NCBI RefSeq assembly: GCF_027587175.1
Contig: NZ_JAPCID010000017.1
Location: forward strand, 1 to 64,000
Origin: Solirubrobacter deserti
Lineage (GTDB): Bacteria > Actinomycetota > Thermoleophilia > Solirubrobacterales > Solirubrobacteraceae
Length of the DNA stretch: 64,000 bases
Reading direction: 5' to 3'
The position numbers and the translations under genes are program-made. Positions 11,318 through 15,553 of this stretch are shown here, piece after piece (positions within the stretch are counted from its first letter, which is position 1; every line of letters begins with the position of its first letter). The notes under the pieces were generated by a model. That model had not been told where the DNA came from. It saw only the letters and a list, made by a program, of their open reading frames with translations, and searched no databases.

Positions 11318-11340
11318 GCCGCGGCGTCCTACGCCGCGGC
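11318..11340. terminator. Hairpin between sigma factor and convergent NTF2-like gene
   Basis: GCCGCGGCG, a TCCTA loop, and CGCCGCGGC form a perfect 9-bp stem just after the rpoD stop, overlapping the last codons of the convergent gene. There is no T-run on either side, so it could serve as a bidirectional pause or terminator in this high-GC genome; activity is inferred. Confidence 0.5.
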
Positions 11341-11961
11341 TCGCACCGCCACCGCCTTCGAGTCGAAGCTGACCGCGCGGACCAGCCGGCGGCGCTCGAA
11401 CAGATACACCGACCACACCTCGCCCGCGCCGGTGAAGTGCACGAGCACGTGCTCGCCGATGGACTCGACTCGCACGGGCTGCGGCACCGGCCCGCCCGGC
11501 GGCCGCTCGGCCAGGAACGCCCGCAGCTCATGCGTCCCGCGCAGCACGCGGCCCTCGGCGATGCGCGGGATCCACTCGACGTCGTCCGGGATCAGCTCGG
11601 CGAGCGCGTCCACACCGCCGCGCACGTACGCCGCGCACAGATCCCGCACGTAGGCCACGTTGTCGGCGGTCTCCTTGTCGCGCCGCGCGCCGTCGGCGAG
11701 CGCGCGCCCGCAGCGGGCGCAGCGGAACCCGACGACGCTCGCCGCCCCGTCCCAGCGGCAGTCCCACACCAGCCCGAGCCGGCGGATGATCACGTCGTAG
11801 CCGACGGCGACGTCCTCGCCGAAGCGCTCGCGATAGAGGTCCAGCAGCGCCGCCGAGGTCAGGACCGCGTGGTGGGTCCGGCGGGTCGTGTCGTCGAACG
11901 CCGGGTCGGGCCCGCTCACGACGGCCCACGGGGGATACGCAGCGTCCGACCTTCGCGCCAT
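11329..11961 (-). CDS. NTF2-like/SnoaL-type protein with N-terminal Cys-pair segment
   Basis: 210 residues. The C-terminal half (about 100-210), with AYVRGGVDALAELIPDDVEWIP and a cone-shaped alpha/beta pattern, resembles SnoaL/nuclear-transport-factor-2 folds, which bind small molecules or act as isomerases and hydrolases. The N-terminal half contains CRWDGAASVVGFRCARCGRAL, three cysteines that may form a partial zinc site. It follows parA by 13 bp on the same strand and probably belongs to the CYTH-CHAD/parA transcript. No catalytic role can be assigned. Confidence 0.65.
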   Translation of the reverse strand: MARRSDAAYPPWAVVSGPDPAFDDTTRRTHHAVLTSAALLDLYRERFGEDVAVGYDVIIRRLGLVWDCRWDGAASVVGFRCARCGRALADGARRDKETADNVAYVRDLCAAYVRGGVDALAELIPDDVEWIPRIAEGRVLRGTHELRAFLAERPPGGPVPQPVRVESIGEHVLVHFTGAGEVWSVYLFERRRLVRAVSFDSKAVAVRAAA

Positions 11962-11974
11962 CGCTGGAAAAAGG

Positions 11975-12694
11975 CTAGAGCCGCTCGCGGATCTCCGTCC
12001 ACAAGTCGGCGTATGCGCGCGCGGCCCGGCTGCGCGGCGCGAAGTCGACCAGCGCGGCCCGTTCAGCGCCCATGCGCTCGACGTCCGCCGAATTCGGGAT
12101 CACCGTCTCGAGCACGTCGTGCTCGCGCCCCAGCTCCTCCATCAGCTCGCGGTGCAGCTTCTTGCGCCGGTCGGCCATCGAGAAGAAGCCGAGCACCTTG
12201 GCGTCGCTGTTGAGCACCTCGTGCAGCTGGTCGAGCGTCCGCGAGCTGAGCGTCGCCGGGATGATCGGGACCAGCAGCGCGTCGGCCGCCTCGAAGACGT
12301 TCTCGGACACGAGGCTGATGCTCGGCGGACAGTCGAGGAAGACGTAGCGGTACTCGCTGAGCGGCTTGATGACGCGGTCGAGGCGGTTGGTCTTGGCGCC
12401 GTCGAGCGCCAGGTCCATGTGGCGGTAGGAGAAGTCCGCGGGCAGCAGGTCCAGGCCCTCGGTGTCGGTGCCCTTGATCTGGCCGTCGGCGTCCGTCTTG
12501 CCGCGCACGAGCTTCGCGCCGCCGCCCTTGATCTTGGGCTTGACGCGGAACAGGTACGTGCTCGCGCCCTGGGGATCGAGGTCCCACAGCAGCGTCTGGT
12601 CGCCGCCGTGGGCGGCGAGCGTCGCGAGGTTGACCGCGGCCGACGTCTTGCCGACGCCGCCCTTGATGTTGTACGTCGCCAGGACCTGGCTCAC
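11975..12694 (-). CDS. ParA/Soj-family ATPase, coupled to CYTH-CHAD gene
   Basis: 239 residues of the ParA/MinD superfamily. The deviant Walker A is NIKGGVGKTSAAVNLA (about 8-23), Walker A' is LLWDLDPQGASTYLF, and Walker B is YVFLDCPPS (about 120). These ATPases form nucleotide-dependent dimers on DNA or membrane and position plasmids, chromosomes or other cargo. The GTG start overlaps the TGA of the CYTH-CHAD gene (GTGA) with AAGGAG 8 nt upstream, so translation is coupled. There is no ParB-like gene or parS-like cluster nearby, so this is an orphan ParA. The coupling suggests that its cargo may involve the CHAD protein (inference). Confidence 0.9.
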   Translation of the reverse strand: MSQVLATYNIKGGVGKTSAAVNLATLAAHGGDQTLLWDLDPQGASTYLFRVKPKIKGGGAKLVRGKTDADGQIKGTDTEGLDLLPADFSYRHMDLALDGAKTNRLDRVIKPLSEYRYVFLDCPPSISLVSENVFEAADALLVPIIPATLSSRTLDQLHEVLNSDAKVLGFFSMADRRKKLHRELMEELGREHDVLETVIPNSADVERMGAERAALVDFAPRSRAARAYADLWTEIRERL

Positions 12695-14166
12695 CCGAAG
12701 TGCTCCTTGACGACGTCGCGCTGCGCCTTCGACGCGAAGACCGCGAACCGGTCGGCGAACTCGGCCCGCGCCGCGATCTCCTCCTGCATGAAGCGCTCGA
12801 TCAGCACGCCCATGGCCATCAGCGTGAACGGATGCCCCTTGACCGCAGGCGCCAGGTCGCGCAGCGCGTTGGCCTGCACCTCGCGGTCCTGGAAGCGGCC
12901 GAGCTGGTCCTGCAGGCCCTTGAGCGTCTTCACGAACGGCTTGACGATCTCCGGCGGGTACAGGCTGGCGAAGAACTCGAGCAGGTAGCGCAGCTCCTTG
13001 CCGACCTTGCGCAACTCGTGCAGGTCGTAGGCGGGCGAGTCGTCGTCGATCGCCCGGCCCATCTTGACCATCTTGCGGTAGACCCGCGTGATCCGGTGCG
13101 ACGCGAGGTCGGAGACCGTGCGGTCGGACGGGCGGCGGCTCGTGACGAACTCGTTCCACTCGGCGAGCGCGTCGCCCGTGCGCTGCGCGCGCAGGGCCCG
13201 GCGCGTGGCCGTGAGCGCCTTGACCCGGCGCTGTTCGAGCACGTCGCGCAGCGGGTCCAGGTCGGCGCGCATCTTCTCCGGCAGCGAGTCGCGCAGCTCG
13301 GGGAAGTCGAGCAGGTAGACGTCGAGGTCGCGCAGGTCGCCGGTCACGGCCTGCAGGCGCTTGAACTCGTCGCGGAAGTGCTGCAGGCGCTCGGGGTAGA
13401 CGCCCTTGAACTGGCGCTGCAGGCTGCGCGTGCGGCGGATGGCGACGCGCAGGTCGTGCAGGAACTCGGAGTCGACGTCGTCGAGCGTGCCGGGCAGGTT
13501 GAGGTCGATCACCTCGAGCAGGCGGCCGAATACAGTCGCCGCGGCGAGGCTGGCGGGCTCGTCCGGGTCCAGCGTGAGCGCGAGCTTGGAGCTCGTGCCC
13601 GCGGGGTCGCCGCCGGCGGCCGCGATCGCCTCGTCGACGAGCGGGACCGTCGCCTCCGGCAGCGCGAGCGTCTCGGCCAGCGTGGCGCGGACGCGCTCGA
13701 TCTCGGCCTCGTAGCCGCGCACCGCGGTGGCGGTGACGCGCCCGCGGGTGCCGTTGTCGGCGGTGGTCAGCTCCAGCCGGACCACCGTCTTGGCGTCCCC
13801 GTTGAGCACGGCGAGCGGCAGCCGGTGGGTGCGGACCTTCGCCACCGGCAGCAGCGCGCGCATCTCCATCTCGGGTGCGAGCCGGGCGCGCAGCGCCTCG
13901 GGCAGGTCGCGGTCGAACAGGCGCTTGGCGGCGGGTGCGGCGGCGCTGGCGAGCGTCGCGCCGGTCTCCCGGTCGAGCAGGACCAGCTCCGTGCCGCTGT
14001 GGCGCAGCGTCAAACCGGCCGCGTGCAGGCGGCCGTCGAACGTGTCGTAGAAGGTCGTCGTCCCGCTCGTCGCGCGGTCCGCGCGCACGTCGAGATGCTC
14101 GGCCAGCGAGGCCTTCGCCGAGGGCAGGTCGGCCCCCTCCGGTAACACGTGAGTAACAACTTCCAT
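12691..14166 (-). CDS. CYTH-CHAD domain protein (polyphosphate-associated)
   Basis: 491 residues. The N-terminal 200 residues resemble a CYTH/triphosphate-tunnel domain (TFYDTFDGRLHAAGLTLR, later VRLELTTADNGTRGR), but the hallmark ExExK near the N-terminus is missing (MEVVTHVLPEG), so catalysis is doubtful. The C-terminal 270 residues form a CHAD domain, a helical domain with conserved His and basic residues (VDSEFLHDLRVAIRRTRSLQ, DLHELRKVGKELRYLLEFF) that binds polyphosphate; CHAD proteins are found on polyphosphate granules. Start at ATG 14166; a longer open frame upstream has no coding character. Its stop overlaps the parA start. Confidence 0.9.
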   Translation of the reverse strand: MEVVTHVLPEGADLPSAKASLAEHLDVRADRATSGTTTFYDTFDGRLHAAGLTLRHSGTELVLLDRETGATLASAAAPAAKRLFDRDLPEALRARLAPEMEMRALLPVAKVRTHRLPLAVLNGDAKTVVRLELTTADNGTRGRVTATAVRGYEAEIERVRATLAETLALPEATVPLVDEAIAAAGGDPAGTSSKLALTLDPDEPASLAAATVFGRLLEVIDLNLPGTLDDVDSEFLHDLRVAIRRTRSLQRQFKGVYPERLQHFRDEFKRLQAVTGDLRDLDVYLLDFPELRDSLPEKMRADLDPLRDVLEQRRVKALTATRRALRAQRTGDALAEWNEFVTSRRPSDRTVSDLASHRITRVYRKMVKMGRAIDDDSPAYDLHELRKVGKELRYLLEFFASLYPPEIVKPFVKTLKGLQDQLGRFQDREVQANALRDLAPAVKGHPFTLMAMGVLIERFMQEEIAARAEFADRFAVFASKAQRDVVKEHFG

Positions 14167-14380
14167 CGGACGCGGCAGTCTCGCAGAACCGGCGTTAACA
14201 TTCCCAAGTGCGGCGATTTCTCTCTCGCCGGACTCCCTGAGCCGCCGTCCACACCGGTCGCCTACGCGGGAGCAAAGGGGATCCTTGTCCTCGGGATGAA
14301 CAGTTGTCGTGATCCGCGTTCCCGCACCCGGCGGGCGCTGCGTCGTGTGGAGGCCGGCGCCGGCCGTCCGGAGACCGATC

Positions 14381-15553
14381 ATGACCGCTCGCAAGCACTT
14401 CAAGCAGCTCGTCCGCGACCGCATGGCGCGCACCGGCGAGGCCTACACCGTGGCCCGCCGGCACGTCGAGGCCGGGGCGCCCGTCCACTGGGAGCTCCGC
14501 GGCGGCGTCGAGGGTGAGACGGCCGCGTTCGCCAACGTCCTCGCGAACCTCGGCGTCGAGCACGACGGCGCGCCGTTGAGCGAGGCGATGATCCTGGGGA
14601 TCGGCGGCGGGCTCGGGGCCGGCTACATCCTGTGGGAGTTCGACGCGTGGGGTTACCGCGCGCTGACGCTCGGCTTCCGGCGCCAGTGGCAGTACCCCGC
14701 CCGCTGGGCGTCCGGGCTGGCCGAGCGGCTCGGGCTGCAGGCGGTGCTGCACGAGACGGGCGGGCGCAAGGCCGCGGCGGCGGCGCTCGACGCCCAGCTG
14801 GAGCAGGGACTGCCGGCGATCGCGTGGATCGACCCGTACCAGCTCGGGCACCGCGGGCTGCCGGAGAGCCGCGACGGGTTCGGCGGCTCACCGGTGGTGG
14901 TCTACGGGCGCTCGGGCGACTCGTACCTGATCGACGACCGCTCGACCGAGCGCGAGGTCGTCAGCGCGGAGCGCGTCGCGGACGCGCGGGCGCGCGTGAG
15001 CTCCTACAAGCACCGGCTGATCACGATCGACCCCGCGCGCGTCGACGTGGGCGACCTGCGCGCCGCGATCGAGGAGGGCCTGCGCCTGCAGGTCGAGCAT
15101 CTGAGCGAGAAGTCGGACTCGTTCTCGCTGCCGGCCTGGCGCAAGTGGGCGCGGATGATCACCGACACGCGCCACAAGAAGGGCTGGCCGACGGTGTTCG
15201 CCGACGGCCGCGGCACCGCGAGCGCGCGCGGCTCGATCTACGCGGGCGCGTCCGGCGGCGCGCATCTGCGCGGGCTCTACGCCGACTTCCTCGACGAGGC
15301 GAGCGCGCTGCTCGGCCGCGAGCTGCCGTCGGCCCCGTGGCGCGAGGCCGCGGCGCGCTGGGAGGCGATCGTCGACGCCGCGCTGGAGCCGGGCGACGAG
15401 CTGCGCGAGCTCATCGACCGCGAGGACCCGGCGCGCTGGAGCGTGCAGGCCGAGCGCGACGTGGCGGGCGAGATGCCGCCGCTCGCCGACGAGGTGACCG
15501 CGATGTACGAGGCCGAGGTGGCCGCGCTGGACCGGCTGAGGGCCGCGCTCTGA
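14381..15553 (+). CDS. BtrH-N domain/DUF4872 protein, probable pseudo-enzyme
   Basis: 390 residues. A short helical N-terminus (HFKQLVRDRMARTGEAYTVARRHV) precedes a BtrH-N-type papain-like fold (about 45-215, with the family signature LSEAMILGIGGGLGAGY) and a DUF4872-like helical C-terminus. BtrH transfers an acyl side chain from a carrier protein in butirosin synthesis. Here the segment that usually holds the nucleophilic Cys reads GETAAFANVLANLG, and the usual His-containing strand reads GGSPVVVYG, so both catalytic residues seem absent. GGAG sits 7 nt before the ATG. The gene stands alone before a strong hairpin; no antibiotic cluster is nearby. Confidence 0.75.
   Translation: MTARKHFKQLVRDRMARTGEAYTVARRHVEAGAPVHWELRGGVEGETAAFANVLANLGVEHDGAPLSEAMILGIGGGLGAGYILWEFDAWGYRALTLGFRRQWQYPARWASGLAERLGLQAVLHETGGRKAAAAALDAQLEQGLPAIAWIDPYQLGHRGLPESRDGFGGSPVVVYGRSGDSYLIDDRSTEREVVSAERVADARARVSSYKHRLITIDPARVDVGDLRAAIEEGLRLQVEHLSEKSDSFSLPAWRKWARMITDTRHKKGWPTVFADGRGTASARGSIYAGASGGAHLRGLYADFLDEASALLGRELPSAPWREAAARWEAIVDAALEPGDELRELIDREDPARWSVQAERDVAGEMPPLADEVTAMYEAEVAALDRLRAAL

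Follow-up and report, generated by a model that had tools for sequence, protein, structure and literature searches.

A widely conserved ParA-CHAD gene pair in Solirubrobacter deserti, a candidate polyphosphate-granule positioning module

Introduction

The closest described counterparts of the locus reported here are McdAB, which acts on carboxysomes, and ParC/PpfA, which acts on chemotaxis clusters; in both, a ParA-fold ATPase works without ParB or parS and is paired with a protein that attaches to a cargo in the cytoplasm. The known ParA partners are reported to use a positively charged, disordered N-terminus (PMC10241942). For polyphosphate (polyP) granules, a 2025 review (PMC13052382) gives AlgP as the only named placement factor and lists ATP dependence as unknown. 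The adjacency ppk-parA-CHAD is in print for Acidithiobacillus (PMC6416229, PMC10892726), and the residues of the C. tepidum CHAD protein (CtCHAD) whose mutation weakened polyP binding have been described (PMC6537752). Here we analyze positions 1 to 64,000 of contig NZ_JAPCID010000017.1 of Solirubrobacter deserti (assembly GCF_027587175.1; this whole stretch is called the window), in which a parA gene without a parB follows a gene for a CYTH-like-CHAD protein. An earlier note, made from the sequence alone, had read the two genes as a granule positioning or partition system. The pair is conserved across phyla, beyond chance, and we consider it probable, though by no means assured, that it constitutes an ATP-driven module for polyP-granule positioning or partition comparable to McdAB.

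Results and Discussion

Conservation of the pair

GTDB genomes were scanned with a profile of seven paired ParAs from the same order. Of at least 554 relatives, the best 80, which are close relatives and no random sample, were combined with 12 loci from the order itself, giving 92 loci with 86 distinct ParA sequences. A CHAD gene lies directly upstream of parA on the same strand in 78 of these 92 loci (73 of the 86 distinct ParAs), and within the paired loci the genes overlap in 55 of 78, with a spacing of exactly -4 in 52. The next commonest neighbour family reaches merely 9 of 80 loci, no conserved third gene was found among neighbours of at least 90 residues around the pair, and the largest cluster of small flanking open reading frames comprises 7 loci, where they overlap the CHAD start in other frames. 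By record title, in many cases that of a metagenome-assembled genome, the paired loci belong to at least seven phylum-level groups (Actinomycetota, Gammaproteobacteria, Acidobacteriota, SAR324, Planctomycetota, Desulfobulbaceae/Deltaproteobacteria and Dormiibacterota), and a further class, the Alphaproteobacteria, carries the pair on Paracoccus plasmids. The earlier note was to be abandoned if the pair did not extend beyond its own genome, and on this point it is strongly upheld. Among the unpaired ParA loci, two lie at contig ends, and six (L036, L038, L041, L064, L077 and L093) have no CHAD gene beside parA but a CHAD match elsewhere in the genome, that of L077 scoring low (161 bits) against the paired-CHAD profile. 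The gammaproteobacterial genome G128 carries two ParAs of the clade, of which L096 stands alone and L112 is CHAD-paired.

Samples with less bias gave the same picture. Among 297 Actinomycetota genomes, with cut-offs (ParA above 300 bits, CHAD above 380 bits) chosen after viewing the score gaps, ParA occurs in 10 and CHAD in 9; all 9 CHAD genomes are among the 10, with the genes adjacent. Among 370 Gammaproteobacteria, searched at E 1e-60, ParA was found in 56, CHAD in 48, both in 38 and the two adjacent in 36 (Fisher P 8e-29, a significance inflated by genome relatedness), while ParA relatives below 300 bits show zero co-occurrence with CHAD in this sample. The paired ParAs all fall in one clade (support 0.82), and the ParA and CHAD distance matrices are correlated (Mantel r 0.76 against a null maximum of 0.17), which shared species history explains in part. 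That the two genes are merely co-transcribed and co-inherited, with unrelated functions, is therefore highly improbable: one gene is kept without the other in some genomes, as such an account would allow, but the pair persists in all the groups listed above while its other neighbours are scrambled, and both the co-occurrence in two samples and the correlated matrices speak against it.

Gene arrangement at the locus

The features of the pair are as follows.
11975..12694, minus strand: parA, encoding a Walker-type ParA/MinD-family ATPase of 239 residues, GTG start
12691..14166, minus strand: gene of the CYTH-like (degenerate TTM)-CHAD protein, 491 residues
12691..12694, minus strand: GTGA overlap of the parA start codon with the stop codon of the CHAD gene
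12859..13527, minus strand: CHAD domain, residues 214-436 (Pfam E 7e-53)
13612..14166, minus strand: N-terminal CYTH/TTM-like beta-barrel domain, approximately residues 1-185, without ExExK
12644..12664, minus strand: deviant Walker A motif KGGVGKT, ParA residues 11-17, invariant in the family
12527..12547, minus strand: R50, K52, K54 and K56 of ParA, the first residues of a basic patch that is specific to the clade and also includes K74 and R91

The start of parA inside the stop of the CYTH-CHAD gene, as noted earlier, is exact to the coordinate, the two genes having 4 nt in common. The accompanying statement that no ParB or parS is present also holds here: the three ParB matches of the assembly lie on other contigs (C46, C94 and C42), none lies on the contig of the pair, and a search of the window that allowed up to 3 mismatches found no parS-like site. 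With ParB and parS missing here and an ordinary parA-parB pair elsewhere in the genome (C46:87967-89062), a plasmid or chromosome partition locus of the canonical ParABS type was ruled out. A SnoaL-like gene (11329-11961, minus strand) lies 13 bases 3' of parA and is possibly co-transcribed with it; across the ParA-CHAD family nothing downstream is conserved. Upstream of the pair, a divergent gene (14309-15553, plus strand) encodes a BtrH_N domain protein with weak likeness to the acyltransferase DarH.

The ParA ATPase

The parA product is a member of the ParA/MinD family of ATPases. It matches AAA_31 of Pfam (E 4.5e-27), and its model (pLDDT, predicted local distance difference test, 88) matches the folds of Soj, ATP-bound ParA and McdA, with BcsQ and Soj-NrdR also among the matches. 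The residues K11, K16, D38, D40, P41 and D121 are invariant, comprising the deviant Walker A motif with its signature lysine, Walker A' and Walker B. A further feature of the 71 paired ParAs is a patch of basic residues, R50, K/R52, K/R54, K/R56, K/R74 and R91, with no or almost no variation; the genome's canonical ParA lacks most of it. R177 and K178 are likewise conserved, and in a HMMER alignment R177 falls on what we take to be a DNA-binding arginine of Soj (B. subtilis R189). Pfam recognised no partner common to the ParA relatives L140-L145, which lie outside the clade.

The conserved basic patch would also suit a passive tether, in which ParA fixes CHAD-coated polyP to DNA without ATP-driven movement, much as has been suggested for AlgP in Pseudomonas; AlgP shows that a DNA-binding protein by itself can alter the spacing of polyP granules (PMC9239181, PMC13052382). 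The catalytic ATPase residues are, however, invariant throughout the family and would be needless for such a tether, which makes this explanation distinctly unlikely.

The CHAD domain and its predicted polyphosphate contacts

The model of the CHAD protein is fully ordered (pLDDT 95) and can be superposed on structure 6qva, C. tepidum CHAD with bound polyP (Foldseek E 4e-15). By residue correspondences hand-counted from a printed alignment, H253, R256, R260, R296, R418 and Y419 of CtCHAD are H237, R240, R244, R279, R393 and Y394 here and are invariant in 36 members of the family, R438 and K441 are K413 and K416, K386, K389 and K390 are R361, R364 and K365, and the sole contact residue lost is R385 (T360 here). 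The protein thus has the fold and the polyP-contact residues of a phosin, and polyP binding is predicted for it from these features.

The gene context points in the same direction. PPK1 and PPX are encoded in the S. deserti genome itself, and in five loci (L048, L056, L074, L099 and L108) a PPK1 or PPK2 gene is found no more than about 6 kb from the pair. The binding of polyP by CHAD that the earlier note had predicted is thereby supported both by the retained contact residues and by polyP or phosphate genes near several distant loci. In Paracoccus the gene string is RHH-CHAD-ParA-CYTH-NUDIX. Its first gene (L163:5789-5977 and L164:5675-5863) encodes a 62-residue ribbon-helix-helix-like (RHH) protein with a basic N-terminus that is weakly ParG-like (E 0.014) and could be the true ParA activator there; a small RHH gene before the pair was found in Paracoccus only and not in the other loci searched. 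On the Thiodictyon plasmid pTs417 (L162:70-6551), pstABS accompanies a CHAD gene of the same type that has no ParA beside it.

These neighbours bear on a regulatory role, in which ParA would be an ATP/ADP sensor that governs how polyP is made or degraded, or how the TTM-CHAD protein and its partner enzymes act or oligomerise. Such a role would accommodate the polyphosphate kinases, and the separate CYTH with ExExK together with a NUDIX enzyme, found beside the pair in some genomes, the regulatory function of ATPases of the same fold (BcsQ and Soj-NrdR), and a CHAD protein without the classical ParA-activating tail. Most loci, however, consist of the pair alone with no enzyme gene conserved alongside, and the paired TTM half is without a catalytic motif, so that there is no obvious enzyme to control; we regard the regulator as an unlikely alternative, albeit the foremost one.

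The degenerate CYTH/TTM domain

None of 36 family members is matched by Pfam CYTH, yet the fold search with the model returned TTM/CYTH enzymes (thiamine triphosphatase, E ~1e-4, probability 1.00), indicating that the CYTH domain is real but degenerate. The absence of ExExK from the CYTH half, noted earlier for this protein, was confirmed in it and by a regular-expression search of 64 distinct homologues, none of which has the motif at strand 1 (the single match lies outside that strand). An active CYTH/TTM enzyme was ruled out by motif and by profile, the tunnel glutamates being judged from the alignment alone. Two TTM-CHAD proteins without ParA (L152 and L153) have clear Pfam CYTH matches, and this contrast with the family-wide degeneration supports the proposal that the CYTH half is structural rather than enzymatic.

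In Gammaproteobacteria, ParA accompanies 38 of 42 full-length CHAD proteins (a count that takes in the contig-split G681) but none of 6 short, TTM-less ones (P 2e-5). Because TTM-less CHADs are without ParA and full-length ones nearly always with it, the association suggests that ParA may dock on the degenerate TTM domain. Tracking of ParA by the TTM domain is supported in Gammaproteobacteria but is not absolute, given the shortened N-terminus of L011 and L012 despite an adjoining ParA and the many actinobacterial full-length TTM-CHADs without ParA. An 'SSKL' motif before CHAD was considered as a universal ParA-activating finger and ruled out, many actinobacterial members being without it.

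Proposed mechanism

It is proposed that the CYTH-like-CHAD protein is a cargo adaptor whose CHAD domain would coat or bind polyP granules, with the degenerate, probably dead CYTH-like half as a possible docking module for ParA. With ATP bound, ParA would form dimers that attach non-specifically to the nucleoid, and the granule-bound adaptor would stimulate ATP hydrolysis or release; in this way the granules would be spread out or parcelled out to daughter cells, in the manner of carboxysomes under McdAB. We infer that ParA and the CHAD protein interact, that ParA binds the nucleoid and has its ATPase stimulated, and that granules are positioned as a result; the conserved genetic pairing with a partner predicted from its CHAD domain to bind cargo is as in ParA/MinD positioning systems. 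The reading of the earlier note is therefore sustained in part, by the pair conservation, the polyP-contact residues and the degenerate CYTH half, while the interaction and the positioning stay presumptive.

Several observations weigh against positioning. Its chief weakness is that the CHAD protein does not have the positively charged disordered N-terminus typical of partners in such systems: the N-terminal 30 residues of the family have a mean charge of about -1 and are fully ordered in the model. With no classical ParA-activating tail, another interaction surface or a further partner would have to serve. The counterpart of the second arginine that we take to bind DNA in Soj (B. subtilis R218) is not conserved. 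Seven Gammaproteobacteria have a good ParA score and no CHAD match, and five Halomonadaceae records (L085, L105, L106, L107 and L110, the ParAs of L106 and L107 being identical) have ParA without a paired CHAD nearby and at most a weak CHAD elsewhere. The ParAs of these five records belong to the same clade and keep the basic patch.

If granule positioning is correct, the conserved pair suggests that some bacteria spend ATP on placing phosphate-storage granules, and polyP granules may be an added cargo class for the ParA/MinD family. A two-gene module with a candidate motor, adaptor and specificity residues makes the question of polyP placement and inheritance testable in many phyla. The more ambitious proposal is that of a widespread organelle-positioning system not interpreted before, in which a ParA clade devoted to the task and marked by a basic patch moves polyP granules through a dead TTM enzyme domain as docking adaptor, the first ATP-driven polyP partition machine; we advance it tentatively, at somewhat less than even chances. 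No paper proposing ParA-driven polyP positioning was found in a search that did not take in most subscription journals or any bioRxiv preprints.

Comparison with known systems

In Acidithiobacillus, the published parA-CYTH/CHAD-ppk arrangement has the same adjacency as here; the two papers cited above interpret it in terms of cAMP signalling or copper resistance, offer no positioning idea and do not show the breadth of the pair. E. coli YgiF, a TTM-CHAD tripolyphosphatase, has the same TTM-then-CHAD order and was found by fold (5a60) and not by the sequence profile of the family; YgiF is enzymatically active and its CHAD is short, whereas in the present family the CHAD is long and the TTM degenerate. 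CtCHAD (6qva) and other phosins are of the long CHAD subfamily as well (the family profile gives E 2e-88) and share the conserved polyP-contact residues; the crystallised CtCHAD construct spans residues 208-522, so the native C. tepidum protein too has an N-terminal part. Like McdAB and ParC/PpfA, the pair described here has a ParA-fold ATPase and no ParB or parS; it differs from them in that its predicted cargo is polyP and that the partner is an ordered TTM-CHAD protein with no disordered basic N-terminus.
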